This document shows, in pieces, positions 5,150-33,844 of a stretch of 64,000 nucleotides of DNA. A model generated the notes under the pieces. The model worked only from the letters and a program-made list of their open reading frames with translations. It did no database searches and was not told the DNA's origin. How positions within the stretch are numbered: position 1 is the stretch's first letter; the number at the start of each line of letters is the position of its first letter. The position numbers were made by a program, and so were the translations under genes. Source of the stretch: Actinomycetospora sp. TBRC 11914 (GTDB taxonomy: Bacteria > Actinomycetota > Actinomycetes > Mycobacteriales > Pseudonocardiaceae); NCBI RefSeq assembly GCF_012933465.1, contig NZ_JABBND010000001.1, positions 930,001 to 994,000 of the forward strand, written 5' to 3'.

Positions 5150-7503
5150 GCACCGCCGGGAGCCCGCAGGTCACGCTGACCGCGCAGCTCTCGACCTCCG
5201 CCACCGACGCCCGCCGCGGGGTGGTCCGGCTGCACACCGAGGTGTTCGCGGCGCTCGGGCTGGCGGCCTGGGACGCGGTCCGGGTCGTCGGCACCCGGGC
5301 GACGGTGGCCCTGGCCGCGCCGGCCACCGGCCCGGTCTCCCCGGGCACCGCCACGCTCGACGAGACCGCGATGGTCAACGCGGGCATCGTCGCCGGCACC
5401 GCCGTAGCCGTGGAGCCGGTCGCGGTCACCGCCGCCCGCACGCTCACCGTCGCGGGGTCACGGCTCGCCTCGACCGCCGTGGCGCCGGAGACGGTGCGCC
5501 TGGCCCTGACCGGCAAGGTCGTCACCCCCGGCGACACCGTCTCGCTCCTCCCCCAGGACCTCGCGCCGGTACCGGGCGCGGACGCCGTCGGGACCCGGAC
5601 CCGGTTGTCGGCCGAGCTCGGCGGCACGTGGACGACGGAGCTGGTCACCGTGGTGGCCGCCGAGCCCGGGTCGGACGCGGCCTACGTCGTGGGGCCGAGC
5701 ACCGTCGTGGAGTGGCAGGGCGGGGCCCGCACCGGCTCGTCGCCGGACCCGGTGCCCCCGGCGGCGGCCACGCCGTCCAGCTTCTTCGGAGGGGTCCCGA
5801 CGTCGAGGGGGGCGGCTCCCGGCCCGGGGCTCGCGGCCGCCGTCGCCGGGGCCTCGTCGGCGCCGGCCCCGGTGTCCTCGCCGGCGCCCGCCGCCCCGCC
5901 CGAGCCCCCGCCGCCCGCGGTCAGCGACCTGGTCGGGCACCAGGACGCGGCGCGGCGGCTGGGTGAGTGGTTCGAGCTGGTGTTCCACCGCCCCGAGCTG
6001 CTGACCCGCCTCGGGGCCGCGCCGCGGCTCGGGGTGCTGGTGGTCGGGCCGGAGGGCGTCGGGCGCACCACGCTGGTGCGCTCCGTCGCCGCCGAGGCCC
6101 GCGCCGGTGTCGTCGTCCTCGACGCGCCCGCCGCCGCCGCGCTGGAGGCCGGGGCGGCCGCCGAGCGGGTGCGGACGGCCTGCCGTCGGGCGCGGGAGGC
6201 CGCCACCGGCGACGCCCGCGCCGTGCTCCTGGTGCCCGACGTCGAGGCGCTCCTGCCCGCGTCCGACCCGCCGCCGCTGGCGACCGTGGTGCTCGACGAG
6301 CTGCGGGCCGTCGTCGCGTCGGAGCGGGTCGCGCTGGTGGCGACCGCGCAGGGCTCCGAGTCCGTCGAGCCGCGCCTGCGCGCTCCCGACCTCGTCGACC
6401 GCGAGCTCGGCCTGGCCGCCCCCGACGACCGCGACCGCGCCGAGCTCCTGCGCGTCCTGCTGCGCGAGGTGCCGCTGGCGGGCGACGCGGACCTCGGCGT
6501 CGTCGGGCTGCGGACCCCCGGCTTCGTCGCCGCCGACCTCGTGGCCCTGCGCCGGGAGGCCGCTGTGCGGGCGGCGCTGCGGAGCGCCGGGGACTCCGGG
6601 GACGCCGGGGAGCTGCGCCTGTCCCAGGACGACCTGCTCGGGGCGGTGACGTCGGTGCGGCCGGTGGCGCTGTCGTCGTCGGGGTCGCAGACGCTGCACT
6701 CGGGCGGGCTCACGCTCGACGACGTCGGCGACATGACCGAGACGAAGCAGGCCCTCACCGAGACCGTGCTCTGGCCGCTGAGCTACCCGGACTCGTTCGC
6801 CCGCCTCGGGGTCGACCCGCCGCGCGGGGTGCTGCTCTACGGGCCGCCCGGCGGGGGCAAGACGTTCCTCATGCGGGCGCTGGCCGGCACGGGGCGGCTC
6901 AACGTGTTCGTGGTCAAGGGCGCGGAGCTGCTGGACAAGTACGTCGGCGAGTCCGAGCGGGCGGTGCGCGAGCTCTTCCGCCGGGCGGCCGACGCGGCGC
7001 CGGCGCTGGTGTTCCTCGACGAGGTCGACGCGCTGGCGCCGCGGCGGGGCGGGTCGAGCGACGCCGGGGTGGCCGACCGGGTGGTCGCGGCGCTGCTCAC
7101 CGAGCTCGACGGCGCGACGCCGCTGCGCGACGTGGTGGTGCTCGGCGCGACCAACCGGCCCGAGCTCATCGACCCGGCGCTGCTACGGCCCGGCCGGCTC
7201 GAGCGCCAGATCTACGTCCCGCCACCGGACGCGCCGGCCCGGGCGGCGATCCTGCGGGCCGCGGCGAAGGCGACGCCGCTGGCGCCCGACGTCGACCTCG
7301 ACGCCCTCGCGGAGTCGCTCGAGGGCTACTCGGCGGCCGACTGCGCGGCGCTGGTCCGCGAGGCCGCACTCACCGCCATGCGGGCCTCGCTGGACTCCAC
7401 CGAGGTCACCGCCGCCCAGTTCGAGGCCGCGCGGCAGGTGGTCCGGCCGTCGCTGGACCCGCGGCAGCTGGCCGAGCTGGAGGCGTACGCGTCGCGGGGG
7501 TGA
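5146..7503 (+). CDS. CDC48/p97-like double AAA+ ATPase
   Basis: A 785-residue protein of the family of mycobacterial Rv0435c. Residues 1-190 look like a CDC48 N-domain (double-psi barrel type). A Pro/Ala-rich linker follows, then two AAA modules. The first module is degenerate: Walker A is GPEGVGRTT (about residue 301, Lys replaced by Arg) and the Walker B position reads LLVPDVEAL, lacking the DE pair. The second is intact: GPPGGGKT at about residue 566, VFLDEVDAL, the second-region ATNRPELIDPALLRPGR and an arginine-finger region. So hydrolysis probably depends on D2. The GTG start overlaps the pssA stop, so it is translationally coupled to phospholipid genes. Cytoplasmic unfoldase/segregase is the likely role; its target is unknown. 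Confidence 0.9.
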   Translation: MSTAGSPQVTLTAQLSTSATDARRGVVRLHTEVFAALGLAAWDAVRVVGTRATVALAAPATGPVSPGTATLDETAMVNAGIVAGTAVAVEPVAVTAARTLTVAGSRLASTAVAPETVRLALTGKVVTPGDTVSLLPQDLAPVPGADAVGTRTRLSAELGGTWTTELVTVVAAEPGSDAAYVVGPSTVVEWQGGARTGSSPDPVPPAAATPSSFFGGVPTSRGAAPGPGLAAAVAGASSAPAPVSSPAPAAPPEPPPPAVSDLVGHQDAARRLGEWFELVFHRPELLTRLGAAPRLGVLVVGPEGVGRTTLVRSVAAEARAGVVVLDAPAAAALEAGAAAERVRTACRRAREAATGDARAVLLVPDVEALLPASDPPPLATVVLDELRAVVASERVALVATAQGSESVEPRLRAPDLVDRELGLAAPDDRDRAELLRVLLREVPLAGDADLGVVGLRTPGFVAADLVALRREAAVRAALRSAGDSGDAGELRLSQDDLLGAVTSVRPVALSSSGSQTLHSGGLTLDDVGDMTETKQALTETVLWPLSYPDSFARLGVDPPRGVLLYGPPGGGKTFLMRALAGTGRLNVFVVKGAELLDKYVGESERAVRELFRRAADAAPALVFLDEVDALAPRRGGSSDAGVADRVVAALLTELDGATPLRDVVVLGATNRPELIDPALLRPGRLERQIYVPPPDAPARAAILRAAAKATPLAPDVDLDALAESLEGYSAADCAALVREAALTAMRASLDSTEVTAAQFEAARQVVRPSLDPRQLAELEAYASRG

Positions 7504-7552: not shown

Positions 7553-7805
7553 GAAGCAATGGCACATTCCTCCCGCTGGACGCCAGAACGGCGCCGCTCG
7601 CTCATCGGACGGCGGCCCACCCCGACGCCGACCGGGGCTCCGACCGAAGCAGTGGCGCATTCCTGGCGTCAGATGCGAGAACGGCGCCGCTCGCTCGTGG
7701 AGCCCCCACCCCGACGCCGACCGGGGCTCCGAACCGAAGCAATGGCGCATTCCTGGCGTCCGATGCCAGAACGGCGCCGCTCGCTCGTGGAGCCCCCACC
7801 CGAGC
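7553..7805. repeat. Three tandem copies of a ~90-bp unit
   Basis: Units begin at 7553, 7646 and 7736 with GAAGCARTGGC, and continue through GAACGGCGCCGCTCGCTC and CCCCGACGCCGACCGGGG. Periods are 93 and 90 bases. The second and third copies are nearly identical; the first has diverged more. The array fills the gap between the convergent ATPase and LytR_C genes, and its last unit ends at the LytR_C stop codon. Both strands stay open through it, but the translations are repetitive Arg-rich sequence and not credible genes. Confidence 0.85.
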
Positions 7806-8998: not shown

Positions 8999-9026
8999 AC
9001 CCGAATGACACGGGTGTCATTCGGGT
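8999..9026. promoter_or_regulatory. Perfect 13-bp inverted repeat in the DUF3263/def divergent promoter
   Basis: The arms ACCCGAATGACAC and GTGTCATTCGGGT are perfect complements separated by GG. The site lies 68 bases upstream of the DUF3263 start and 100 bases upstream of def. A short spacer and long perfect arms suit an operator for a dimeric regulator rather than a terminator. Confidence 0.65.
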
Positions 9027-9126
9027 GCCTCCCATTCAACCACGCCGGTCCGACAACTCCGTGGCAACGCACGGCGTCACCACCACCCCCGGCCGCGATC
9101 CCCCAGCTCACCTAGGCTGCCCCGCC

Positions 9127-9714
9127 GTGACCGTCCGCCCGATCGTCATCACCGGCGAACCCGTCCTGCACGCCCCGACGCGGCCGTTCGACGACGACGA
9201 GTTCGGCTCGCCGGAGCTCAAGACCCTCGTCGAGGACCTGTTCGAGACGATGGACGCGGCCCACGGCGTCGGGCTCGCCGCCAACCAGATCGGCGTCGGG
9301 CGGCGCGTGTTCGTCTACGACTGCCCCGACCCCGAGCTCGACGGCGAGCGGCGGCGCGGCGTCGTGGTCAACCCGACCCTCGAGACCGGCCCGATCCCCG
9401 AGACGATGCCCGACGAGGACGACGACGCCGAGGGCTGCCTCTCGGTGCCGGGCGAGAACTTCCCCACCGGCCGGGCCGAGTGGGCGCGGGTCACCGGGTA
9501 CGACGTCGAGGGCACCCCGCTCGAGGTCTCCGGCGTCGGTTTCTTCGCCCGCTGCCTGCAGCACGAGACCGACCACCTCGACGGCCACGTCTACACCGAC
9601 CGGCTCGTCGGGCGGAACAAGCGGGCCGCGAAGCGCGCGGTCCGCGACCACGGCTGGGGCGTGCCGGGCCTGTCCTGGATGCCGGGCGTGGATCCGGACC
9701 CGTTCGGTCACTGA
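9127..9714 (+). CDS. def: Peptide deformylase
   Basis: A 195-residue metalloenzyme that removes the formyl group from nascent N-termini. All three motifs are present: [18 protein letters not shown] (metal-ligand Cys), and QHETDHLDG (two His ligands and catalytic Glu). The GTG start at 9127 gives the usual N-terminus [13 protein letters not shown]. It is divergent from the DUF3263 gene, as in mycobacteria (Rv0429c/Rv0430). Confidence 0.95.
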
Positions 9715-9854: not shown

Positions 9855-11597
9855 GTGACGACCGTCCTGACCGATCCGGTGGACGACCCGTGCGCCACGG
9901 GCCCCGTCCCGCTGACCGCGGGCCCCGCGACGTGGGCCGCCGAGCGCGGCACCTCGACCGCCTTCACGTTCAGCGACCACACGGTCTCGCCGCCCCGTCG
10001 GTCCTCGCTGACCTGGGACGAGCTGGCGCGGGACACCGACGACCTCGCCCGCCGGCTGCGCACGGTGGCCGAGCCCGGCGAGCGCTGCGCGATCATGCTG
10101 CCCACCGGCCTGGAGTTCGTCGTCGGCATGCTCGCCGCGGTGCGGGCCGGCCTCGTCGCGGTGCCGCTGTTCGGCCCGGACAACCGGGGGCACGCCGAGC
10201 GCGTCCGGGCGGTGCTCGAGGACTGCACGCCCGCGCTGGCCCTGGCCACCCCGGCGGGCGTCGAGGCCGTCGAGGCCACCGGCGCGGTCGGCCGGGTGCT
10301 CGCGCTCGGCGGCACCGGCGACGAGCTCCCCGCCCCGAGCGGGGCGGAGCTGGTGGACCCGGACCCCGACGACGTCGCCTACCTGCAGTACACGTCGGGC
10401 TCGACGCGCACCCCGGCCGGCGTCGTCGTCACCCACGCCAACGTGCTCGCCAACTGCGCGCAGCTCGTCGACGCCGTGGGGGTGCACCGCGACACGAACC
10501 GCTCCGTGACCTGGCTGCCGCTCTTCCACGACATGGGCCTCGTCGCCGGCGTGCTGCTGCCGGTGTGCACCGGGGTGTCCGCGGACCTCATGGACCCGGC
10601 GGCGTTCGTGCAGCGCCCGGCGCGCTGGCTCGACCTGCTCGCCGGGGCACCCGGCACCTTCTCCGCGGCGCCGAACTTCGCCTTCGACCACTGCGTGCGC
10701 CGCGTCCGCGACGTCGACCTGGAGCGGCTCGACCTGAGCGGGGTCACCGCGCTGGTGAACGGCAGCGAGCCGGTCCGGCCCGCGACGATCGAGCGCTTCG
10801 CGGAGCGCTTCGGCCCGGTCGGGTTCCGACGGGAGGCCCACCGCCCCTCGTACGGGCTGGCCGAGGCCACCGTCTTCGTCGCCACCGGCCCGGCCGGCCG
10901 CGAGCCGGTCACCGTCGCCTTCGACGCCGAGCGGCTGCGCAGCGGGGAGGCGGTGCCGGCCACCGACGACGACGGGGCCCGCGCGCTCGTGTCGTGCGGG
11001 ACGCCGGTCGGCCAGTCGGTCGTCGTCGTGGATCCGGTGTCCCGACGACCGCGCCCGGACGGTGCCGTCGGCGAGCTGTGGTGCCGCGGGCCGAACGTGG
11101 CGGCGGCCTACCACGGCGGCGGCGAGCGGTCGCGGGAGACCTTCGAGGCCACCCTGGCCGACGACGCCCGCGGTGGGCTCCCGGCGGGCCCGTGGATGCG
11201 CACCGGCGACCTCGGCGTCGTCCACGACGGCGCCCTGTTCGTCACCGGGCGCCTCAAGGACACGATCATCGTCGACGGCCGGAACCACTACCCGCAGGAC
11301 CTGGAGGCCACCGCCGAGTCGGCCGACCCGGAGGTGCGGCAGGGGCTGGTCGCCGCGTTCGGGGTGGACGACCGCGACGAGGGCGAGCAGGTGGTGGTGC
11401 TCGCCGTGCGACGGCGCCGCGACGAGGACGGCAGCGCCGCCCGGACGGTGCGCCGGGCGGTCTCCTCCGAGCACGGCGTCCCGGTGCGCGAGGTCCGGTT
11501 CGTCCCGCCGCACGAGCTCCCGCGCACCAGCAGCGGCAAGATCGCCCGGGCGGCGTGCCGCCGGGCCTACCTGGCCGACGCCGGGGCGCTCCGGTGA
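9855..11597 (+). CDS. Fatty acyl-AMP ligase, FadD32 type
   Basis: A 580-residue adenylate-forming enzyme. The AMP-binding motif reads YTSGSTRTPAGVVV, the form typical of FadD32. Other motifs are WLPLFHDMGL, PSYGLAEATVFVA, RTGDLG, and GRNHYPQDLE, diagnostic of fatty acyl-AMP ligases rather than acyl-CoA ligases. PRTSSGKIAR carries the C-terminal lysine. It should activate a long acyl chain as the adenylate and load it on the N-terminal ACP of the PKS that follows. The GTG start is at 9855; its stop overlaps the PKS start (GTGA), implying coupled translation. Substrate chain length cannot be read from sequence. Confidence 0.92.
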   Translation: MTTVLTDPVDDPCATGPVPLTAGPATWAAERGTSTAFTFSDHTVSPPRRSSLTWDELARDTDDLARRLRTVAEPGERCAIMLPTGLEFVVGMLAAVRAGLVAVPLFGPDNRGHAERVRAVLEDCTPALALATPAGVEAVEATGAVGRVLALGGTGDELPAPSGAELVDPDPDDVAYLQYTSGSTRTPAGVVVTHANVLANCAQLVDAVGVHRDTNRSVTWLPLFHDMGLVAGVLLPVCTGVSADLMDPAAFVQRPARWLDLLAGAPGTFSAAPNFAFDHCVRRVRDVDLERLDLSGVTALVNGSEPVRPATIERFAERFGPVGFRREAHRPSYGLAEATVFVATGPAGREPVTVAFDAERLRSGEAVPATDDDGARALVSCGTPVGQSVVVVDPVSRRPRPDGAVGELWCRGPNVAAAYHGGGERSRETFEATLADDARGGLPAGPWMRTGDLGVVHDGALFVTGRLKDTIIVDGRNHYPQDLEATAESADPEVRQGLVAAFGVDDRDEGEQVVVLAVRRRRDEDGSAARTVRRAVSSEHGVPVREVRFVPPHELPRTSSGKIARAACRRAYLADAGALR

Positions 11598-14500
11598 CCG
11601 CGGCCGAGGCGGACCTGCGCGGCAGGCTGCTGGAGCTGGTCGCGACCTGGTGCGACCTCGACCCCGCCGAGCTCGACGCGGACGCGTCGCTCGGGGACCT
11701 CGGGCTCTCGTCGCGCGACATCGTCGCGCTGTCCGGCGAGATCGGCGACGAGCTCGGCGTCGACCTCCCGACGACGGTGCTGTGGGAGTCGCCGACGATC
11801 TCCACCCTGATCAGCACGCTCGCCCCGGAGGCCGCCGGGGTGGCCGCCCCCCGCGACGCCGTCCCGGCCCCGGACGAGCCCCTCGCCCTCGTCGGCCTCG
11901 GCTGCCGGCTGCCCGGTGGCGTGGACTGCCCGGAGGCGTTCTGGGAGCTGCTGGCGCGCGGCGGCGACGCCGTCGGCACGGTGCCCGCCGGCCGGTGGTC
12001 GGACCGGCCCGCCGACGTGGGCGACCGCGGCGGCTTCCTCGACGACGTCGCGGGCTTCGACGCCGGCTTCTTCGGGATCTCGCCGCGCGAGGCCGCGGCG
12101 GCGGACCCCCAGCAGCGGCTGCTGCTCGAGGTCGCCCACGAGGCCCTCGCGCACGCCGCGATCGACCCGGCGTCCCTGCGCGGCAGCGCGACCGGCGTCT
12201 ACGTCGGGGTGTCCTCCGTCGACTACCCCTCCACCCCGGGCGAGCCGTGGCAGGCCACCGGCACCTCCGCCGCCGTCGTCGCGGGGCGTCTCGGCTACGT
12301 GCTCGACCTGCGCGGACCCGCCGTCACCGTCGACACCGCCTGCTCCTCCTCCCTGGTCGCCCTGCACCAGGCGGCGCAGGCCCTGCGCGCGGGGGAGATC
12401 GACCTCGCGCTCGTCGGCGGCACCAACGTGCTCGGGACCGCCCGGGGCCAGGTCGCCATGGAGGCGCTCGGGGTCCTCTCGCCGCGGGGACGCTGTGCCC
12501 CGTTCGACGCGGCCGCTGACGGCGTCGCGCGCGGCGAGGGCGCGGGCGTGGTCGTGCTCAAGCGGCTCGCGGACGCGCGGCGCGACGGCGACCGGGTGCT
12601 CGCCCTGCTCGCGGCGACCGCCGTGAACGCCGACGGGCACTCGCAGGGGCTCACCGCGCCCCACCCGGGCGCGCAGCGGGACCTGCTGGCCGCCGCGTAC
12701 CGGCGCGCGGGCATCGACCCGGCGACCGTCGACTACGTGGAGGCCCACGGCACCGGGACCGCGCTCGGCGACCCCATCGAGGCGGGCGCCCTCGGCGCGG
12801 CCCTCGGGGCCGGCCGGTCCCCGGAGCACCCGCTGCTCATCGGCTCGGTGAAGTCCAACATCGGGCACACCGAGGCCGCGGCGGGCCTCGTCGGGCTGAT
12901 CAAGGTCGTGCTCGCGATGGGCTACGACCGGCTCCCGGCGACCCTGCACCAGGACGAGCCCAGCCCCCACCTCGACCTCGCCGCCGCCGGGCTCCGCGTG
13001 GTCGCGCACCCGACCGGATGGCCGCGCTACGGCGGGCGGGCGAGCGCCGGGGTGTCGTCGTTCGGCTTCAGCGGCACCAACGCGCACGCCGTGCTGGTCG
13101 AGGCGCCCGCGTACCCCGCCGCCGAGGCGCCCCGGGACCGGCCCGTCGTCGCCGTCCTGTCCGCCCCCGACGAGGAGCGCCTGCAGGAGACGGCCCGCGC
13201 GCTGGGCCGGTGGCTGACCGAGCGGCCCGCCGGGGCCCGCCCGAGCCCGGTCGACGTCGCGCACACCCTCGCGCGCCGGGACGCGATCTCCGCACACACC
13301 GGCCGGCGACGCCGCCTCGCGGTGGTCGCCTCCGACCACGAGGAGCTCGCCGCCCGGCTGACCGGCGCCGCGCACGGGCCCGTCGCCGAGCCGGACCCCA
13401 CCGCCGCGCCGGGCGTGGTGTGGCTCTTCGGCGGCCACGGCTCCTGGTGGCCGGGCACCGGCCGCGGCCTGCTCGACGGCGAGCCCGTGTTCGCCGCGGC
13501 CGTCGCCCGCCTCGACGAGTCCTTCACCCGGTACGCCGGGCGGAGCCTCACCGCGCTGCTCACCGATCCCCCCGCGGAGTCCGACCTCGCCGCCACCCAG
13601 CTCGCCGTGTGCGGAGTGCAGCTCGCGCTCGCCGCGACCTGGCGGGCCGCCGGGGTCCAGCCCGCGGCCGTCGTCGGGCACTCCATGGGCGAGGTGGCCG
13701 CCGCGGTCGCCGCCGGCGTGCTCACCGAGGACGCCGGGGTCCGGGTCATGGCGGTCCGCGCCCGGCGGCTCGCCGAGCTCGACGCGGCCGGGGGCGGCGC
13801 GATGGCGTCGGTGGAGCTCACCCCCGCCGAGCTGGCGTCGATCGGCGACGAGGTGGAGGTCGCGGTGCACGCCGCGCCCGACCAGCTCACCGTCTCCGGG
13901 CCGGCCGCCGCCGTGCACCGGGTGGTCGAGGCCGCCCGCGACCGGGGCCGCACCGCGCGGCTCCTGCCGCTCGGGGTGGCCTGCCACACCGCCGCCGTCG
14001 AGCCCCTCCGCGCCGCGCTGCGCCGCGAGCTCGCCGACCTGGAGACCCGGCCCGCCACGGTGCCCTGGTACGACACGACCGGCGGCGACCCGCGCCGGCA
14101 CCCGACCGGCGACGCCGCGCACTGGGCCGACGCCGCCCGGCACCCGGTCCGCTGGGCCGACGCCGTCGCCGCCGCGGCGGCCGACGGGCACGCCCGGTTC
14201 CTCGAGCTCTCGCCGCACCCGGTGGTCCTCGGGGCCACCGGTCGCACCCTCGCCGCCGCCGGGACCGAGCCCGTCCTGGTCTCCTCCGTGCGGCGGGGTG
14301 ACGACGAGGTGCGGGCGCTGCGGATCGCGCAGGCGCAGCTGCACGTCGCCGGCGTCGCGGTCGACTGGGCCGCCGTGCTGGGCGACGGCCGCGTCGTCGA
14401 CCTGCCGGGACCGGTGTGGCGCCACGAGCGGTTCTGGGCCGAGCCGCCCGCGGCCGTCGCCGCGCCCACGGGCGCACACCCGCTCCTCGGGGCCCACCAG

Positions 14501-15955
14501 GAGCTCCCCGGCGGGTCCGCCGACGTGTGGCAGGCGCCGCCGCGGCACGGGGACCTCACCACCGCCCGGCTGCGCGAGCGGGTCCTCGCCGCCGCGGAGC
14601 ACCGCCACGGTCCCGGCGCCGCACTCGTCGGGGAGCTCGTCCGGCTCACCGAGCCCGGCACCGGACAGGCCGGCCGGGGTGCCGCGCTGAGCACCCTCGC
14701 GCGCGGCGACGGCACCGTCGAGGTCCACCTGCGCACGCCCGACGGCGGCTGGGTGCCGGTCGCCACCGCGAGGACCACCGCCGTGACGCCCGGACCCGAC
14801 GACGGCGGCTCCCCCGAGACCGCCGCCGAGGCGTCCGGCACCGGAACCCGGCTGGACGCCGTCCGCCGGCTCACCGCCGACGTCCTCGGGCTCGACCACC
14901 GGCGGCTCGACGTCGACGCCGACCTCGCCGCGGTCGGGCTGGACTCGCTCGGCGCGCTGCGGCTGCGCCGCCTCCTGGAGGCCGAGCTCGACGTCACCGT
15001 GCCGGTGCGCGAGCTGCTGGCGGGCGCGACGGTCCGGCAGCTCGCGCAGGACCCCGGCCCGGGACGCCCGGCGCCCACCCGCGGCGCTCCGGCCCGCGTG
15101 TCGGTCCCCGCGGACACGCCCGCGGTCACCGTCCTGCAGGAGGGCGAGCCCGGGGTGGTCCCGCTGCACCTGTTCCACCCCGCGGGCACCCCGACCGCGG
15201 TCTACGGGCCGCTCGTCGCCGCGCTGCCGCCCGACGTGCCCTGCCTGGGTCACGAGCGCGCCGCGGAGCCCGGGCCGGTCCCCGAGCGGGCGCGCGGTCA
15301 CCTGGCACAGCTGCGCCGCCTGCAGCCCGCCGGCCCGTACCGGCTGCTGGGCTGGTCGTTCGGTGGCGTGCTCGCCCAGGAGACCGCGGTCGCGCTCACC
15401 GCCGCGGGGCAGCAGGTCGAGATCGTCGCGCTGGTCGACGCGGTGCGGGCCGCCGCCGCACCCGGCCCCGACCTCTCCGGCGACCCGCGGTCGTTCACCG
15501 CGGCCCGGCTCTCCCGGCTGGTCCGCCACCTCGAGAACGTCCACGACACGGTGCTCCCGATCGACCTCGACGGGCTCGCCGACCTCGACGAGGACGCCCA
15601 GCTGGCGCGGCTCCTCCGCGCCCTGACCCAGGCCCCCGTGCCGTGGAGCGCCGCCGCCCTCGAGCACCAGCGGACCTCGATCCTCGACGCGCGCGACGCC
15701 GAGGCCCACGTCCCGGGCCGGCTCTCCGCGCCCGTGGTGCAGTACCGCGCGCTGCACCCGTGCGAGGCCTTCGACGTCCTCGACCCGCGCTACAACCGGG
15801 TCGGGCCCGACGGCGGGTGGGGTGACGCCCTCACCGACCTCGAGATCGTCGGGCTCGAGACCGACCACCTCGGCGTCCTCGACCCGCCGCACGCGCAGGC
15901 CATCGCGCACGACCTCGCCGCCCGGTGGGGCCTCATGGCGGGGCGGAGCCGGTGA
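11594..15955 (+). CDS. Pks13-like condensing polyketide synthase (ACP-KS-AT-ACP-TE)
   Basis: A 1453-residue type I PKS. The N-terminal ACP has Ser39 in GLSSRDIVALSGEI, very like Pks13. The KS spans about 95-520 with Cys250 in DTACSSSL and His residues in EAHGTGTALGD and KSNIGHTEAA. The AT has Ser697 in GHSMGE. The second ACP has Ser1118 in GLDSLG. The thioesterase has Ser1255 in GWSFGG and a terminal His in ETDHLGVLD. No KR, DH or ER domain is present, so one Claisen-type condensation without reduction is expected, as in mycolic acid formation. It is shorter than mycobacterial Pks13 (about 1730 residues). It overlaps both neighbours by GTGA, coupling it to the FadD32-like ligase and the reductase. 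Confidence 0.93.
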   Translation: MTAAEADLRGRLLELVATWCDLDPAELDADASLGDLGLSSRDIVALSGEIGDELGVDLPTTVLWESPTISTLISTLAPEAAGVAAPRDAVPAPDEPLALVGLGCRLPGGVDCPEAFWELLARGGDAVGTVPAGRWSDRPADVGDRGGFLDDVAGFDAGFFGISPREAAAADPQQRLLLEVAHEALAHAAIDPASLRGSATGVYVGVSSVDYPSTPGEPWQATGTSAAVVAGRLGYVLDLRGPAVTVDTACSSSLVALHQAAQALRAGEIDLALVGGTNVLGTARGQVAMEALGVLSPRGRCAPFDAAADGVARGEGAGVVVLKRLADARRDGDRVLALLAATAVNADGHSQGLTAPHPGAQRDLLAAAYRRAGIDPATVDYVEAHGTGTALGDPIEAGALGAALGAGRSPEHPLLIGSVKSNIGHTEAAAGLVGLIKVVLAMGYDRLPATLHQDEPSPHLDLAAAGLRVVAHPTGWPRYGGRASAGVSSFGFSGTNAHAVLVEAPAYPAAEAPRDRPVVAVLSAPDEERLQETARALGRWLTERPAGARPSPVDVAHTLARRDAISAHTGRRRRLAVVASDHEELAARLTGAAHGPVAEPDPTAAPGVVWLFGGHGSWWPGTGRGLLDGEPVFAAAVARLDESFTRYAGRSLTALLTDPPAESDLAATQLAVCGVQLALAATWRAAGVQPAAVVGHSMGEVAAAVAAGVLTEDAGVRVMAVRARRLAELDAAGGGAMASVELTPAELASIGDEVEVAVHAAPDQLTVSGPAAAVHRVVEAARDRGRTARLLPLGVACHTAAVEPLRAALRRELADLETRPATVPWYDTTGGDPRRHPTGDAAHWADAARHPVRWADAVAAAAADGHARFLELSPHPVVLGATGRTLAAAGTEPVLVSSVRRGDDEVRALRIAQAQLHVAGVAVDWAAVLGDGRVVDLPGPVWRHERFWAEPPAAVAAPTGAHPLLGAHQELPGGSADVWQAPPRHGDLTTARLRERVLAAAEHRHGPGAALVGELVRLTEPGTGQAGRGAALSTLARGDGTVEVHLRTPDGGWVPVATARTTAVTPGPDDGGSPETAAEASGTGTRLDAVRRLTADVLGLDHRRLDVDADLAAVGLDSLGALRLRRLLEAELDVTVPVRELLAGATVRQLAQDPGPGRPAPTRGAPARVSVPADTPAVTVLQEGEPGVVPLHLFHPAGTPTAVYGPLVAALPPDVPCLGHERAAEPGPVPERARGHLAQLRRLQPAGPYRLLGWSFGGVLAQETAVALTAAGQQVEIVALVDAVRAAAAPGPDLSGDPRSFTAARLSRLVRHLENVHDTVLPIDLDGLADLDEDAQLARLLRALTQAPVPWSAAALEHQRTSILDARDAEAHVPGRLSAPVVQYRALHPCEAFDVLDPRYNRVGPDGGWGDALTDLEIVGLETDHLGVLDPPHAQAIAHDLAARWGLMAGRSR

Positions 15956-16788
15956 GCGGGCCGCGCCACGTCCTCGTCGCCGGGGCGTCGTCCGGCATCG
16001 GCGCCGCGACCGTCGCCGAGCTGCTCGAGCGCGGGCACCACGTCACCGCGTCGGTGCGCGCGCCCGCGGACGCCGCCGCCCTCGAGGCGCGGCACGACGG
16101 CGCCCGGCTCCGGGTCGTGCGGTTCGACGTCACCGACACCGCGCGCATGGGCGAGGTCGTGCGCGACGTCGCCGCGGCGGGCCCGCTGCACGCCGTCGTC
16201 GCGAACGCGGGGATCGCGCTCGCCGCGCCGCTCGCCCACCTGCCGGCCGACGACCTCCGCCGGGTGCTCGAGGTCAACGTGGTCGGGCAGGTCGCGCTCG
16301 TCCAGGCCGCGCTCCCCGCGCTGCGCCGCGACGGCGGGCGGGTGGTGGTCGTGGGCTCCCTCGCCGGCCGGCTCGCCGGCCCCATGCTCGGGGCCTACGC
16401 CGCGTCCAAGGCCGCCCTCGCCACGACCACCCAGGTGCTGCGGGCCGAGCTCGCCCCGCGCGGGGTGCCGGTGGTCCTCGTGGAGCCCGGCGTGACCGCC
16501 AGCGCCATCTGGGACCGGGCCCGGGACGCGACCACCGACCTCCGGGCCCGGCTCGGACCCGACGTCGCACGCGAGTACGACGCGCTGTGGGACGACCTCG
16601 CCGCCGACGCGTCGCACAACGCCGAGCGCGGCGCCCCGCCGCGGCGTGTGGCCCGGGCGATCGTCCGGGAGGTCGAGGCCCCCCGGCCCCGGCCCCGGCG
16701 GCTCGTGGGCCGCGACGCCCACCTCGCGGCCGCGATCGCGGTGCTCCCGGGGCGGGTGCGGGACCGGTTGCTCGCCGCGCGGCACTGA
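15952..16788 (+). CDS. Short-chain dehydrogenase/reductase, candidate beta-ketoester reductase
   Basis: A 278-residue classical SDR with the cofactor motif GASSGIG, NAGIALAAPL, VVGSLAGR containing the catalytic Ser, and the YAASK pair. A basic tail is typical of membrane-associated SDRs. The GTG start overlaps the PKS stop (GTGA at 15952). In mycolate producers CmrA (Rv2509) reduces the beta-keto product of Pks13 to the beta-hydroxy form. The coupled position makes that the best guess here. The SDR family alone does not fix the substrate. Confidence 0.85.
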   Translation: MSGPRHVLVAGASSGIGAATVAELLERGHHVTASVRAPADAAALEARHDGARLRVVRFDVTDTARMGEVVRDVAAAGPLHAVVANAGIALAAPLAHLPADDLRRVLEVNVVGQVALVQAALPALRRDGGRVVVVGSLAGRLAGPMLGAYAASKAALATTTQVLRAELAPRGVPVVLVEPGVTASAIWDRARDATTDLRARLGPDVAREYDALWDDLAADASHNAERGAPPRRVARAIVREVEAPRPRPRRLVGRDAHLAAAIAVLPGRVRDRLLAARH

Positions 16789-16895
16789 GCCACCACTGCG
16801 AGTGACATCCAGTCACGGTGCGCGACAACCCTCGTTGGACCCGACGGAGCGGGTCCGCCCTCCCACCCACACCACCAGACCCTCGGGGAGCCCAC

Positions 16896-17909
16896 GTGCT
16901 GCGACGACCCAGCGGCCCGGGGCGTGCCGCGGCCCTCGTCCTCGCGCTGGTCGCGGCGCTGCTCACCGCCGGCGGCGGCACCGCGGTCGCGGCCCCCGCT
17001 CCGGGTGCCCGGGTCGTCTCGGCGGTCCCGCACGGCCCCTCGGAGATCCGCCTGCGGGTGTTCTCGCCGGCGATGGGCACGACGCTCCCCGTGACGCTGC
17101 TCCTGCCGCGCGGCTGGGCGCACGGTGGCACCTTCCCCACGCTGTACGCCCTGGGCGGGATGGACGAGGTCGACGACCGGGCCTGGACCAGGCTCACCGA
17201 CCTCCCGGCCTTCGCCGCCGCGCACGACGCGCTCGTGGTCCTGCCCCCGACCAGCAAGGGGGGCATGTTCAGCGACTGGTTCGCCCCCGGCCCGCACTGG
17301 GAGACCTTCGACACCGTCGAACTGCCGGCGCTGATCCGCGCGGAGTTCCGGGGCGGCGCCCGCCAGGCCGTCATGGGCATCTCCGTCGGCGGTCACGCGG
17401 CGCTGAAGTTCGCGGCGCACCAGCCCGGCGCGTGGGCCGCGGCCGCGTCGTTCTCCGGGATCCCGTACTCCTCCGCGCCGGGCGTGTCCGCCCTGTACGA
17501 GAAGTCGATGGCGGACGCCGGGGTCGACCCGAAGGCACCGTGGGGCGACCCGGTGGCCCAGTCCGGCGTCTGGGCGGCGCAGGACCCGGCGAACGGGATG
17601 GGGAACCTCCGGGGCACCGCGGTGTTCGTCTCCGCGTCGAGCGGCGTGCCCACCCCCGCCCGCCTGGCCGGCGACCCCGGCCAGGTCCTCCGCGACCCGC
17701 CCGGTGCGCTGGGCCGGGCCACCGGGGGCAGCTCGATCGAGTCGGTCGCGTTCAGCACCTCGGTGCGGTTCGCGCAGGAGGCGCGCGCGGCCGGGGTGGC
17801 GGTCACCTCGGACTTCCCGGCCACCGGCATCCACGACTGGCCGTTCTGGAGCGCCGAGTACAAGAAGGCCTGGCCGATGATCGCCGCCGCGCTCGGGATC
17901 CCGGCCTGA
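16896..17909 (+). CDS. Secreted antigen 85-like mycolyltransferase/esterase
   Basis: A 337-residue alpha/beta hydrolase. A Sec signal peptide (residues 1-33) ends near AVAAPAPG. Antigen 85 hallmarks are FSDWFAP, HWETFDTVELP, nucleophile Ser163 in GISVGGHAAL, and His313 in GIHDWPFW. The Cys pair of Ag85 between SDW and WETF is absent. The family transfers mycolyl groups to trehalose or arabinogalactan outside the membrane. The GTG at 16896 was chosen for its GGGGAG site and good signal peptide; an upstream GTG at 16818 is possible. It lies 107 bases after the reductase, with the same orientation. A general secreted esterase is the alternative. Confidence 0.85.
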   Translation: MLRRPSGPGRAAALVLALVAALLTAGGGTAVAAPAPGARVVSAVPHGPSEIRLRVFSPAMGTTLPVTLLLPRGWAHGGTFPTLYALGGMDEVDDRAWTRLTDLPAFAAAHDALVVLPPTSKGGMFSDWFAPGPHWETFDTVELPALIRAEFRGGARQAVMGISVGGHAALKFAAHQPGAWAAAASFSGIPYSSAPGVSALYEKSMADAGVDPKAPWGDPVAQSGVWAAQDPANGMGNLRGTAVFVSASSGVPTPARLAGDPGQVLRDPPGALGRATGGSSIESVAFSTSVRFAQEARAAGVAVTSDFPATGIHDWPFWSAEYKKAWPMIAAALGIPA

Positions 17910-18025
17910 CGAGCACCGCGGCGCTCGCCGGGGCACCGACCGTCGAGTTCGCCGCACCCCGTCCCGACGCATTCGACGCCCCCGGCTCCCCCGACACCGA
18001 CCCGACCGGATGGCGCGCCGCCGCC

Positions 18026-19480
18026 GTGATCGCGACGGCGAGCGCGGGCGCGGCCCTCGTCGTCGTCGACGCCACCGTGGTCACGCTGGCGGCCCCCGGG
18101 CTCGTCGCCGATCTCGGGATCGGCGGCGGGGGCGCGCAGTGGGTCGTCGAGGCCTACACCGTGGTCTTCGCGTCGCTGCTGCTCTCCGCCGGCCGGGTGG
18201 GCGACCGGTTCGGACGCCGTCGTGCCCTCGCGGCCGGGGCGCTGGTCCTCGCCGGCGCGGGCGCGCTGGCCGCCCTCGCGCCGGGGCCCGCCGTCCTCCT
18301 CCTCGCCCGGGCCCTGCAGGGGGCCGGGGCCGCCCTGGTCTTCCCGGCCACCCTCTCCGTGCTGGGGGCGACGTTCCGCGGACCCGTGCGGGGCACGGCC
18401 TTCGCGCTGTGGGGCGCGACGATCGCCGCGACGGCCGGCGTCGGTGGCCTGCTCGGTGGCTGGCTGACGACCACGCTGGGCTGGCGCGCGGTGTTCGCCG
18501 CGTCCGTCCCGGTCGGCGTGGCGGTCGCCCTCGCGGCGCACCTCGCGCTGCCGGAGAGCCGCGAGCGCACGGGGTCCGTCGACCCGGTGGGCGCCCTGCT
18601 CTCCGCGGCCGGGGTCGGCGCCGGGGTCCTCGCGCTCGTGCAGGGCCCGGCCTGGGGCTGGTGGGCCCCCGGGCCCGCCGCCCCGGCGGGCTGGCCGGTG
18701 TCCCCGGTCCCGCTGCTGGTGGGGACGGCGGTGCTCTGCGCGGCGGCGTTCGGGGTGCGGCAGCGCCGGCTCGGCGCGGCGGGCGCGGTCCCCCTGCTGT
18801 CCGGCCACCTGCTGCGGGTCCGGTCCTTCCGGGCCGGGACGGCGGCCGCGGCGGTGGTCAGCTTCGGCGAGTTCGGCCTGATGTTCGTCCTGCCCTTCTG
18901 GTGGCAGGACGTGCTGGGGTGGACCGCGGCGCAGGCCTCCGTCCTGCTGGTGTTCCCGACCGTCGCGGCGCTGACCGGCGGCCTGACGACCTCACTGCTC
19001 GTCCGCCGGGTCGGCCCGCGCGCGACCGTCCGCGCCGGGCTGGCCTGCGAGGGCGCCGCGGCGGCCGGGCTCGCCCTCCTGGTGGCGGGCGGCGCCGCCC
19101 CGTTCGCCCTCGGCGGCGCCCTGCTCGCGCTCTACGGGCTGGGGCTCGGGCTCGCCTCGGCCCAGCTCGGCTCGATCGTGCTGGCCGACCTGACCGGCGA
19201 CGACGTCGGGGCCGGGTCCGGCGCGATGACCACCGCCCAACAGGTGGGGTCGGCCTTCGGGGTCGCGGTGCTGGGCGCGGTGACGTTCTCGGCGCCGGTC
19301 CTCGCGCACGGCGTCGCCCGCGCCCTCGGCCTCACCGCGACGGCGCTCGTGGTCGCCCTCGCCGTGACCTGGCGGCTCGGCGCGGCACGGGGCGGACGCC
19401 ACCGCCGGGCTCGGCGGCCGAGGGGGCCCGGGTTTCGCCCTCAGCGCACACCCCTGCCCGATACCGGTGCAACGGTGTAA
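18026..19480 (+). CDS. MFS transporter, DHA2-like (14 TM type)
   Basis: About 484 residues with many membrane helices, the motif GRVGDRFGRRRAL after helix 2, and a LDAxVV-like motif (VVDATVVTLAAP) in helix 1. Both fit drug/H+ antiporter-2 transporters. The start is uncertain: the first ATG/GTG/TTG in frame is GTG 18026, right at helix 1. The conserved frame also extends back to a CTG at 17906 that overlaps the mycolyltransferase stop (CTGA); that would give 524 residues and a normal cytoplasmic N-terminus. The position at the end of the FadD32/Pks13-like operon suggests export of its lipid product, an inference only. Confidence 0.85.
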   Translation: MIATASAGAALVVVDATVVTLAAPGLVADLGIGGGGAQWVVEAYTVVFASLLLSAGRVGDRFGRRRALAAGALVLAGAGALAALAPGPAVLLLARALQGAGAALVFPATLSVLGATFRGPVRGTAFALWGATIAATAGVGGLLGGWLTTTLGWRAVFAASVPVGVAVALAAHLALPESRERTGSVDPVGALLSAAGVGAGVLALVQGPAWGWWAPGPAAPAGWPVSPVPLLVGTAVLCAAAFGVRQRRLGAAGAVPLLSGHLLRVRSFRAGTAAAAVVSFGEFGLMFVLPFWWQDVLGWTAAQASVLLVFPTVAALTGGLTTSLLVRRVGPRATVRAGLACEGAAAAGLALLVAGGAAPFALGGALLALYGLGLGLASAQLGSIVLADLTGDDVGAGSGAMTTAQQVGSAFGVAVLGAVTFSAPVLAHGVARALGLTATALVVALAVTWRLGAARGGRHRRARRPRGPGFRPQRTPLPDTGATV

Positions 19481-19490
19481 GCACGACGCT

Positions 19491-20429
19491 GTGGACGAGC
19501 TCGACTCCTACTCCCGCACCGTGGTCGCCGTCGCGGAGACGGTCGGCCCCGCCGTGGCCGCCCTCGCCGTCGGCGACCCGGAGAACCCGCGCGGCGCGGG
19601 CTCCGCGGTCGTGGTCGGCGACCCGGCCGGACCCGGCGCCGTCCTGGTCACCAACGCCCACGTCGTCGCCCGCGCCCGTGGCGGCCGCGCCACCTTCGCC
19701 GACGGCACCCACGCCGACGTCCGCGTCCTCGGCGCCGACCCGCTCTCCGACCTCGCGGTCCTCGCCGTGCACCCCGACGCCACCACCCCCGAGCCGGTGG
19801 CCCTCGGCGACGCCGCCGGCCTGCGGGTCGGCCAGCTCGTCGTCGCCGTCGGCAACCCGTTCGGTCTCGCGGGCAGCGTCACCGCCGGCGTGGTGAGCGC
19901 CCTCGGCCGCTCGCTGCCCACGCGCGACGGCAGCGCGAGCCGCGTCGTCGAGGACGTGATCCAGACCGACGCCGCGCTGAACCCCGGGAACTCGGGCGGG
20001 GCCCTCGCCGACGCGTCGGGCCACGTCGTCGGGATCAACACGGCCGTCGCCGGGGTGGGGCTCGGCCTCGCGGTCCCGGTCACGACGACGACCCGCGGCA
20101 TCCTCGAGGCCCTGCGCCGCGACGGGCGGGTGCGCCGCGGCTACCTCGGCGTCGTCGGCGCCCCGGCGCCGCTGCCGGTCGAGGTGGCCGCGCGGCTGGG
20201 ACGGGCGAAGGGCCTGCGGGTGGCCGACGTCGTCGCCGGGAGCCCGGCCGCGCAGGCGGGCCTGCGTCGCGGTGACATCGTCGTCGACGCCGACCGCGAG
20301 CCCGTCGTCGACGCCCAGGGACTGCAGCGACGCCTCTTCGCCGACTCCATCGGCCGCACGCTGCCGGTCACCGTGCTGCGCGGCCGGGCCATGGTCGACG
20401 TCCTCGCGGTGCCCTCCGAGCTCTCCTGA
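19491..20429 (+). CDS. Trypsin-like serine protease with PDZ domain (S1C/HtrA type)
   Basis: About 312 residues. The catalytic triad is visible as TNAHVV, SDLAVL and GNSGGAL, followed by GINTAVAGVG. A C-terminal PDZ domain runs from about RRGYLGVVG through VVAGSPAAQAGLRRGDIV. Unlike most HtrA proteins there is no signal peptide or membrane helix, so it appears cytoplasmic. The GTG at 19491 avoids overlap with the MFS gene; an in-frame GTG at 19467 is the alternative. It lies just upstream of the thiC riboswitch; no functional link to thiamine is evident. Confidence 0.9.
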   Translation: MDELDSYSRTVVAVAETVGPAVAALAVGDPENPRGAGSAVVVGDPAGPGAVLVTNAHVVARARGGRATFADGTHADVRVLGADPLSDLAVLAVHPDATTPEPVALGDAAGLRVGQLVVAVGNPFGLAGSVTAGVVSALGRSLPTRDGSASRVVEDVIQTDAALNPGNSGGALADASGHVVGINTAVAGVGLGLAVPVTTTTRGILEALRRDGRVRRGYLGVVGAPAPLPVEVAARLGRAKGLRVADVVAGSPAAQAGLRRGDIVVDADREPVVDAQGLQRRLFADSIGRTLPVTVLRGRAMVDVLAVPSELS

Positions 20430-20492: not shown

Positions 20493-23024
<2,532 letters not shown>

Positions 23025-23033
<9 letters not shown>

Positions 23034-23074
23034 ACGGATGTGGTCGTCCGGGCGACCACATCCGTTCACATGGG
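23025..23074 (+). terminator. 22-bp perfect hairpin between tandem thiD genes
   Basis: The arm from 23025 (CCCATGTGAACGGATGTGG...) pairs perfectly over 22 bases with 23053-23074 around a 6-base loop TCCGGG. It contains the stop codon of the first thiD and ends 12 bases before the second. No U-run follows, so it could be an attenuator or mRNA-stability hairpin rather than a classical terminator. Confidence 0.7.
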
Positions 23075-23086
23075 AGCGTGCTCCCC

Positions 23087-23950
23087 ATGGCCGAGACACC
23101 GCCGCGCGCGCTGACGATCGCCGGCTCCGACTCCGGCGGCGCGGCCGGGCTCGAGGCCGACCTCCGGGCGATGACGGCGTGCGGGGTCCACGGCTGCGTC
23201 GCGGTCACGGCCGTGACCGTCCAGAACTCCCTCGGCGTCTCCGGGGTGCACCTGGTGCCGCCGGACGTCGTCGCCGCGCAGGTCCAAGCCGTCGTCTCCG
23301 ACATCGGCGTGGGCGCCGCCAAGACCGGGATGCTGGCGACGGCGGAGATCATCGAGGCGGTCGCGGGGGTGGTCGACGAGGTCGGGATCGGGCGCGGCGA
23401 CGACCAGGACACGCAGCGCAGCGGAGCCGGACCATCGGTCCCGTTCCTGATCGACCCGGTCGCGGCGTCGATGTACGGCGAGCCGCTGCTCGCCGACGAC
23501 GCCATGGAGGCCTTCCGCACGCTGCTCTTCCCCCGCGCGGCGCTCGTCACCCCGAACCTCGACGAGGTCCGGCTGCTCACCGGTGTCACCGTCACCGGCG
23601 CGGACTCCGCCCGGAAGGCGGCCGACGCGCTGCACGACCTCGGGGCCCGGTGGGTGCTCGTCAAGGGCGGCCACCTCCACGGCTCGCCCGAGGTCACCGA
23701 CCTGCTCTCCGACGGCGAGCGGACCTGGGAGTTCACCGGGCCGCGGATCGACACCCCGCACGTGCACGGCGCCGGCGACGCGCTGGGCAGCGCGACCTGC
23801 GCCGGCCTCGCCCGGGGCCTCGCCGTCCCCGACGCGGTCGCCTACGCCGAGCGCTACATCCGCCGGGCCGTCGCGGCGGCCTACCCCCTCGGGCAGGGCA
23901 CCGGGCCGGTGTCCCCGCTCTGGGCGATCGCGGAGTGGGACGAACCGTAG
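23087..23950 (+). CDS. ThiD-like HMP/HMP-P kinase, second copy
   Basis: A 287-residue ThiD paralogue with all motifs: TIAGSDSGGAAGLEAD, AAKTGMLAT, DPVAASMYG, TPNLDE, LVKGGHLHG, VHGAGD. Compared with the first copy it carries an extra polar insert (GRGDDQDTQRSGAGPS) before the DPVAA block and lacks a few residues later. Identity to the first copy is high, suggesting local duplication. The ATG at 23087 follows GGGAGCG. A perfect hairpin separates it from the first thiD, so the two may be expressed differently. It may phosphorylate HMP or a related pyrimidine. Confidence 0.9.
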   Translation: MAETPPRALTIAGSDSGGAAGLEADLRAMTACGVHGCVAVTAVTVQNSLGVSGVHLVPPDVVAAQVQAVVSDIGVGAAKTGMLATAEIIEAVAGVVDEVGIGRGDDQDTQRSGAGPSVPFLIDPVAASMYGEPLLADDAMEAFRTLLFPRAALVTPNLDEVRLLTGVTVTGADSARKAADALHDLGARWVLVKGGHLHGSPEVTDLLSDGERTWEFTGPRIDTPHVHGAGDALGSATCAGLARGLAVPDAVAYAERYIRRAVAAAYPLGQGTGPVSPLWAIAEWDEP

Positions 23951-33711: not shown

Positions 33712-33717
33712 GCTCTT

Positions 33718-33806
33718 CCCTCCCTGCGCCGGCATGACCCGGATCAGGTTCGACGGTCGGGACCGTGGGTCCCCTCTCAGCCCGGCCGCTCCGGGCTCCC
33801 GTGGTG
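33718..33806 (-). promoter_or_regulatory. TPP (THI-box) riboswitch upstream of thiO-thiS-thiG
   Basis: On the reverse strand the order is GGGAGCCCGGAGCG, GGCTGAGAGGGGACC, GAACCTGATCCGGGTCATGC, CGGCGCAGGGAGG. The last GGAGGG lies within ribosome-binding distance of the thiO ATG, suggesting translational control. It lies between divergent thiO and thiE, and thiE on the other strand is not covered by it. Confidence 0.95.
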
Positions 33807-33844
33807 GTGCTCGCCCGTCACCCTACGCGCTAGCGTCGCCGGCG

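Follow-up and report, generated by a model that had tools for sequence, protein, structure and literature searches.

We found that the genome of Actinomycetospora sp. TBRC 11914 (family Pseudonocardiaceae; 6.52 Mb, 97% complete) carries an operon that may make and deliver a mycolate-type lipid, a reading to which we give a probability of about 0.55. The operon lies in a stretch of 64,000 nucleotides (contig NZ_JABBND010000001.1, positions 930,001 to 994,000; hereafter the window, whose own numbering is used below). Its five tightly packed genes, all on the + strand at 9855-19480, encode a fatty acyl-AMP ligase (FAAL), a type I polyketide synthase (PKS), a short-chain dehydrogenase/reductase (SDR), a secreted esterase similar to antigen 85 (Ag85) and PS1, and a permease of the major facilitator superfamily (MFS). 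A first-pass annotation of this DNA had proposed such an operon in a non-mycobacterial host; all five genes are in place on the + strand, and the host genus belongs to Pseudonocardiaceae, in which a general taxonomy paper also lists it. The order of the family, Pseudonocardiales, is described as lacking mycolic acids, which are called exclusive to one order, in the accessible part of PMC6194230. The proposal of a mycolate-like operon outside the mycolate producers was right in kind, but its ligase and synthase are sister forms of FadD32 and Pks13, and the chemistry, including the substrates, product, acceptor, and export, is predicted from sequence.

In the PKS (1453 aa; 11594..15955, + strand), Pfam found KS, AT, two PP-binding stretches, and Thioesterase. 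The domain order is N-terminal acyl carrier protein (N-ACP), ketosynthase (KS), acyltransferase (AT), a linker with a putative dehydratase remnant (DH*), C-terminal ACP (C-ACP), and thioesterase (TE). The motif residues are kept in the KS (DTACSSS at residue 247, EAHGTG at 383, and NIGHTE at 422), the AT (GHSMGE at 695 and VACHT at 795), both ACPs (GLSSRD at 37 in the N-ACP and GLDSLG at 1115 in the C-ACP), and the TE (GWSFGG at 1253 and ETDHLG at 1422). By Pfam, the protein has no ketoreductase (KR), dehydratase (DH), or enoylreductase (ER); the degenerate DH half escapes Pfam and is an addition to the ACP-KS-AT-ACP-TE architecture, with an N-terminal ACP and without reducing domains, that had been read earlier and that Pfam and the motifs confirm. 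The nearest solved structure is Pks13 (739 bits), followed by the enzyme MAS (610.5 bits). Against the NCBIfam model mycolic_Pks13 (NF040607), the synthase scored 1065.5 bits and did not reach the cut-off of 2100, which is reached by 28 of the 31 genomes of a mycolate-producer family. With about half of the curated cut-off and a position outside the Pks13 clade, the earlier name Pks13 does not hold.

Phylogenetic analysis of the KS-AT region gave the synthase its place. In a careful tree with 40 of the 89 rows of a quick tree (duplicates of a gene from loci that overlap were left out of the KS-AT trees), one superclade (100/98) contained the window type (two Actinomycetospora and four Amycolatopsis rows), 11 Pks13 rows, and 12 rows of synthases with in-line DH and KR (hereafter the DH-KR type). 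Eight modular or other rows and three FAAL-linked rows (L062, L106, and L108) fell outside this superclade, and the quick tree had the same groups. An ordinary modular PKS was ruled out by these trees, and the synthase is not far from Pks13, as the first-pass annotation had expected. Within the superclade, Pks13 was monophyletic without the window synthase (100/100), the window type formed a group of its own (100/98), and Pks13 grouped with the DH-KR rows at 88/84, which is below the level of strong support. Constraining the window type and Pks13 together cost 6.3 log units and was not rejected by the approximately unbiased (AU) test (p-AU 0.075), which is compatible with either one or two origins of the non-reducing form. 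Judged by its sequence, the window synthase is a sister line to Pks13-type synthesis, and not a Pks13 ortholog or a transferred copy.

The FAAL (580 aa; 9855..11597, + strand) matches Pfam AMP-binding (9.3e-64) plus a DIP2-like AMP domain, and contains the motifs YTSGSTRTPAG at residue 179 and GRNHYPQDLE at 475. Its nearest solved chains are 5d6j and 5icr (labelled acyl-CoA synthase; 420.8 bits), the former of which we take to be FadD32 of a mycobacterium, and the first chain labelled as FadD32 is 5ey9 (404.8 bits). Among NCBIfam models, the best match was NF004509 (544.1 bits, cut-off 775), and the score against the FadD32 model NF038339 was 510.3 bits, short of its cut-off of 975. In a quick tree with long rows, six FadD32 rows of mycolate producers were separated from the window and Pseudonocardiaceae rows at 99, and the window and Amycolatopsis non-reducing rows were close, yet did not form one group. 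One of the rows in this tree, labelled 'A_other', is an A. endophytica copy (L114) identical to L049. The model score and the position outside the FadD32 clade speak against the identification of this ligase as FadD32 in the first-pass annotation. A quick tree of the esterase, also with long rows (47 rows hand-picked from 90 distinct sequences), likewise separated five Ag85 rows of mycolate producers from the window and Pseudonocardiaceae rows at 98; here, the window and Amycolatopsis non-reducing rows were apart.

These results bear on the possibility that a genuine Pks13 operon moved in from a mycolate producer and directs the synthesis of ordinary short (coryno)mycolates. The shared architecture, with a DH half at the position it has in Pks13, and the non-rejected joint clade would be consistent with such an origin. 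The exclusion of the window synthase from a fully supported Pks13 clade, its NF040607 score, and the quick-tree positions of the FAAL and the esterase make it very improbable. A recent import of a real Pks13 was ruled out by the model score, the KS-AT tree, and the FAAL tree.

The linker between the AT and the C-ACP contains a stretch (approximately residues 962-1070; 14477..14803, + strand) that looks like the N-terminal hot-dog half of a dehydratase without its catalytic motif, similar to the pseudo-dehydratase of Pks13. Using hhalign, the window linker matched the DH N-half of related synthases with a probability of 97.5% (E 5e-12), and the Pks13 linker matched it with 95.5% (E 1.5e-8). The motif HxxxGxxxxP was absent from the Actinomycetospora linkers (0/2) and the Pks13 linkers (0/25), and was present in 10 of the 17 rows of the DH-KR type and in one of the seven Amycolatopsis non-reducing rows, in which the stretch is mostly ACP; this Amycolatopsis form has no DH* stretch. 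The AlphaFold model is hot-dog-like (pLDDT 78.8, pTM 0.71), from an input alignment that included full DH relatives and may push the model towards this fold, and its Foldseek matches were PKS dehydratases (best 8.3e-5) plus the AviM domain 7vwk. According to the accessible part of a cryo-EM study of M. tuberculosis Pks13, DH* is an N-terminal DH half that was matched to AviM and lacks catalytic residues (PMC11649247). By Pfam, a Pks13 row of our own set (L099) likewise has no DH or KR. Farther downstream, the C-ACP and TE serines are 137-138 residues apart in the two Actinomycetospora rows vs. 232-334 in 21 of the 24 Pks13 rows, the spacing in the remaining three being unreadable by motif patterns. 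The DH-KR form and the non-reducing form of Amycolatopsis each contain a match to the psi-ACP stretch of Pks13 (92-98%). Two further hhalign comparisons gave no or trivial signal and were not used, namely, psi-ACP against ACP profiles and the mostly ACP linker of the Amycolatopsis non-reducing form against Pks13.

Small residues at the pocket motif of the AT go with bulky extenders, and HAFH or YASH are the motifs of ordinary extenders. The motif is VACH in both Actinomycetospora rows and, for the non-reducing form of Amycolatopsis, VAGH in all three rows shown; the other rows shown have GAGH (six), VAGH (one), and GAAH (one) in the DH-KR part of the superclade, GAGH (four), GASH (one), and GSSH (one) in Pks13, and HAFH (three) and IAFH (one) in modular synthases. 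By its sequence, the VACH motif of the window AT fits a bulky extender. This point is relevant to a different product, a small secreted metabolite derived from a polyketide or fatty acid and without an envelope role, for which the FAAL would start the chain, a single malonyl or methylmalonyl unit would be added, the MFS permease would export the beta-hydroxy (alpha-methyl) acid or ester, and the esterase would tailor or cleave it. An AT motif that is neither HAFH nor YASH, a KS-AT in one clade with Pks13, and an esterase with PS1, Cmt1, and Ag85 as its nearest solved relatives argue against such a metabolite, which we consider rather unlikely. A permease of the DHA2 drug-efflux kind (by family names, below the cut-off), the scattered presence among genomes of the genus, and an operon without AccD or MmpL would suit it.

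The remaining three genes were examined for the later steps of a mycolate-type pathway. The SDR (287 aa; 15925..16788, + strand; Pfam adh_short 7.2e-43) has GASSGIG at residue 20 and the classical YxxxK active site (YAASK at 158), in agreement with its earlier description as a classical SDR. The name CmrA was absent among the 120 listed of 800 relatives in a protein search, which had generic SDR names, and no NCBIfam model among those shown was above its cut-off for the SDR or the esterase. Since the KR was lost from the synthase, the adjoining SDR is the natural reductase, and we propose from sequence that it acts as a stand-alone ketoreductase that replaces the lost domain.

The esterase (363 aa; 16818..17909, + strand; Pfam Esterase 9.2e-22) has a signal peptide by eye and WETF at residue 161. 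Its Ser in GISVGG (187), Glu in IESVAF (307), and His in IHDWPF (338) align to PS1. In mycoloyltransferases, Ser, Glu, and His have a catalytic role, and WETF and HxW are known motifs. Among solved structures, PS1 of corynebacteria is the nearest (147.4 bits, 5.1e-42), ahead of Cmt1 (75.0 bits, 5e-20) and Ag85A (64.1 bits, 1e-16). The family assignment, the WETF and HDWPF motifs, and the match to PS1 bear out the secreted antigen 85-like protein of the first-pass annotation. The MFS permease (17906..19480, + strand; Pfam MFS_1 5e-40) is of the DHA2/EmrB type, with 148.6 bits against TIGR00711, which did not reach its cut-off of 230.2. This gene is present after the esterase gene as had been claimed, but the usual start codon at the overlap is not there. 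No ATG, GTG, or TTG was found at that position, the homology to A. endophytica begins at a CTG (17906), and in-frame candidates are GTG at 18026 and 18077, such that the start is uncertain. We propose, from sequence, that the permease exports the lipid. A plasmid collection was searched with the MFS region only and returned no match.

In the proposed pathway, the FAAL would adenylate a fatty acid and load it onto the N-terminal ACP of the PKS, as suggested by its family. The AT would load an alkylmalonyl-type (alpha-carboxylated acyl) extender onto the C-terminal ACP, and the KS would perform a single Claisen condensation that yields an alpha-alkyl beta-keto acyl chain, which the TE would release or transfer. 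The SDR would then reduce the keto group to a beta-hydroxyl, the job of CmrA for mycolates and of the in-line KR in related synthases. Finally, the MFS permease would carry the lipid across the membrane, and the Ag85/PS1-like enzyme would transfer it to a sugar or to host arabinan. The acceptor could be arabinan because the host genome has five Emb-type arabinosyltransferase matches (PF04602; best 645.2 bits) and the accessible part of PMC6194230 lists Pseudonocardiales as arabinogalactan makers without mycolates. The Emb-type matches answer the arabinogalactan-gene check of the first-pass annotation in the positive; as controls, 14 genomes were scanned, and only C. glutamicum was positive.

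Related clusters were found across the family. In seven of the 19 family genomes outside the genus (G018-G036), namely, G018, G025, G026, G027, G032, G033, and G036, a FAAL, a PKS, and an Ag85-like gene occur in one stretch, reached via esterase matches; the matches in G024 and G031 were read for only 1.5 kb on either side. The locus L117 of Amycolatopsis tucumanensis has the order MmpL, hydrolase, MFS, FAAL, PKS, acyl-CoA carboxylase beta subunit (AccD), Ag85-like gene, and secretory lipase. An AccD gene lies between the PKS and the Ag85-like gene in all 12 Amycolatopsis loci checked (of 14), and follows the synthase in G018, G025, and G032 (L058, L109, and L053). Both Pks13 loci that were read have it as well (50-52%), as do two loci from other families of the order (61-65%). 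It was not found in L050, L054, L062, L106, and L108; L107 is cut at the AccD position, and the overlapping L058 has the gene. The 14 Amycolatopsis loci (L115-L128) and L053, L058, and L109 share the set FAAL, DH-KR type PKS, AccD (in the Amycolatopsis loci, seen in the 12 that were checked), and Ag85-like gene. This set resembles a mycolate locus, although Amycolatopsis is described as a genus without mycolic acids. In other families of the order, L101 (G037) and L102 (G048) have a FAAL, a superclade synthase with an N-ACP, and AccD in a row, and no Ag85-like gene was matched within the same 19-kb stretch. Among 10 longer superclade synthases scanned by Pfam, all have a KR and the N-half of a DH, and eight have the DH C-half. 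Those of L101 and L247 have the KR and only the DH N-half, possibly an intermediate stage on the way to the DH* found in Pks13 and in the window synthase, as far as sequence goes.

The non-reducing form is not limited to Actinomycetospora. It also occurs in genus g16, which is Amycolatopsis by the place of its PKS. Relatives of the window SDR (49-55% identical) were found in 31 g16 genomes when 346 family genomes were searched, and in each of the 28 g16 loci returned the SDR gene has an Ag85-like neighbor. In seven of the eight g16 SDR regions read, a FAAL accompanies a synthase whose part beyond the AT is 441-490 residues long, compared with 493 in the window and 1095-1217 in the KR-bearing type; no KS-AT was found in the eighth (L243). 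Two of the seven synthases were scanned by Pfam and have no DH or KR. SDR matches in two other genera (G034 and G112) have no KS-AT nearby. The loss of DH and KR is accompanied by a separate SDR in both lineages of the window type, Actinomycetospora and Amycolatopsis. In the open-access literature, we found no title or abstract start that describes these Pseudonocardiaceae clusters, a search that mostly did not cover subscription papers.

Within the genus, the distribution of the operon is narrow. Scanning named genomes by protein pattern with the PKS as query yielded 15 loci, of which one is on a contig of Actinomycetospora endophytica and 14 are in Amycolatopsis. The five genes recur in A. 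endophytica in unchanged order, with 68-86% protein identity (PKS 81%), and the flanking proteins of the two carriers are 88-92% identical. Chance or misread frames were excluded by the KS match (E 8.3e-79) and this shared gene order. The esterase was found in two of 18 Actinomycetospora genomes, which are also the two with the SDR at E<=1e-50. In both, the operon sits between genes for a peptide deformylase (9025..9714 in the window, + strand; Pfam Pep_deformylase 1.4e-41) and an HtrA-like serine protease (19467..20429, + strand; named by sequence reading). The protease gene is present in 17 of the 18 genomes, and in all 15 of these other than the two carriers the deformylase gene directly adjoins it, an empty site. 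The deformylase-protease spacer is 37-116 bp long in the seven empty sites read, all of which have TGCAACGGTGTAAGCAC at the protease start, as does the window. The protease proteins of the carriers are 92% identical to each other, and those of other genomes are 76-86% identical to that of the window. As the carriers are closest at the protease, a single gain by their common ancestor would be the most parsimonious history. The operon was apparently gained horizontally, and probably once, in the ancestor of the window strain and A. endophytica, with gain instead of loss as the suggested direction; alternatively, an old operon may have been lost from the other genomes.

A further concern is that the operon is a decayed or silent remnant without a product. 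The DH half without a catalytic motif, the vanished psi-ACP stretch, and the absence from the window of a lipase gene of A. endophytica could be taken as signs of decay. That gene (L049, 5264-6586, - strand; secretory lipase PF03583, 188 bits) lies between the MFS and protease genes, and nothing in the window matches it; a gene of this family also follows the Ag85-like gene in Amycolatopsis L117. Five open frames, active-site motifs kept at the KS, AT, ACPs, TE, SDR, and esterase, and the conservation with A. endophytica argue for function, as does the GC content at third codon positions (0.945-0.981 in the operon genes vs. 0.939-0.978 in neighbors). Decay is thus improbable.

Several observations weigh against a mycolate-type product. 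The operon has no accD4. The host genome has six Carboxyl_trans matches, none of them in the operon, and the one nearest to the AccD of the Amycolatopsis cluster (64%) is found directly upstream of Maf, a housekeeping-type place. No MmpL3-grade protein was found in the host genome, which has two MMPL matches of 24.0 and 21.4 bits; the stronger one is SecD, and no additional Pfam family matches the weaker one. The search for accD4 and mmpL3 suggested by the first-pass annotation therefore gave neither a dedicated AccD4 nor such a transporter. The psi-ACP stretch before the TE is missing from the window PKS, and the direct hhalign comparison of the window and Pks13 linkers was weak (5%, E 0.007). 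According to the accessible part of PMC7065075, mycobacterial Rv2509 has the signatures GxxQNIG and CANAGT, and a wider corynebacterial form is GxxSGIG. Rv2509 also has a C-terminal extension. The window SDR has GASSGIG, like the corynebacterial form, and VANAGI; lacking the mycobacterial signatures, it may be only an analogue of CmrA. Ag85-like proteins occur in 77 of 249 family genomes at E<=1e-45, and 24 of 25 new loci have no FAAL or PKS within approximately 1.5 kb, a reach that is too short where AccD intervenes. Among five such loci read more widely, a superclade synthase is present in three, and no KS-AT was found in the other two. With the fold so common in the family, it alone is no proof of mycoloyl transfer. 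The presence in two of 18 genomes of the genus is as compatible with an accessory metabolite as with an envelope lipid. Moreover, in one Amycolatopsis species none of the known mycolate masses was detected, according to the accessible part of PMC8930869; that species may lack the cluster, and an altered lipid would escape a search by known masses.

Together, these patterns suggest a wider hypothesis, which we advance tentatively. Pseudonocardiaceae may hold a sister mycolate-type system, in Actinomycetospora and Amycolatopsis in a non-reducing form with an SDR and, more widely, in a DH-KR form that mostly has AccD and an Ag85-like gene, and Pks13 may derive from a reducing FAAL-linked synthase. 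The present sequence trees suggest such an origin for the Pks13 DH*. An ancestor of Pks13 that lost the KR and half of the DH, once or twice, would explain its pseudo-dehydratase. If true, a sister pathway in Pseudonocardiales would change the chemotaxonomic rule on mycolic acids, provide a place outside mycolate producers in which to study Pks13-type chemistry, and give the Pks13 pseudo-dehydratase an evolutionary origin. Direct lipid analysis is possible in the named strain A. endophytica TBRC 5722.

Other features of the window are as follows. The FAAL and PKS genes overlap by GTGA, as had been noted before, and the PKS and SDR genes by 31 bp, with an alternative SDR start at 15952. The 3' end of the MFS gene overlaps the start of the protease gene. 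To the left of the operon, a tandem array at 7553-7801 has 2.7 copies of a 90-bp unit (88% matches), and ARAGORN called a doubtful tRNA-Gly (ccc) of 94 nt at 5261-5354, for which there was no Rfam call at the gathering score. To the right, two tandem ThiD-like frames (by reading; approximately 22200-23950) lie downstream of a ThiC-like gene, and a thiamine pyrophosphate (TPP) riboswitch at 33703-33812 (- strand) is away from these frames.

Compared with the fadD32-pks13-accD4 locus of mycolate producers, the window operon likewise has a FAAL ahead of a synthase of the order ACP-KS-AT-DH*-ACP-TE in which no reducing domain is functional, Ag85-fold acyltransferases, a KS-AT in the same superclade, and a separate SDR for the keto group. 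In mycolate producers, the CmrA gene lies elsewhere in the genome. The window synthase differs in its sister-clade position and in that no psi-ACP stretch precedes its TE; accD4 is absent from the operon, which includes both the SDR and the MFS genes and resides in a host order described as mycolate-free. The L117-type clusters of Amycolatopsis have in-line DH and KR (ACP-KS-AT-DH-KR-ACP-psiACP-TE), whereas the window type has lost both and has an SDR; AccD mostly adjoins those clusters, and MmpL does so in L117, whereas the window operon has neither. Both share the FAAL-PKS order, the N-ACP, the AT motif class, the TE, the Ag85-like gene, and a nearby MFS gene, and the PF03583 lipase family is shared with the A. 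endophytica operon. The window esterase (363 aa) is shorter than the PS1 chain (620), only the first part of which is covered by the match, and it groups with Ag85-like proteins of Pseudonocardiaceae outside the five mycolate-producer rows. Nevertheless, it has in common with the mycoloyltransferases PS1, Cmt1, and Ag85 that it is a secreted protein of the Esterase family with the Ser/Glu/His residues and the WETF and HxW motifs.

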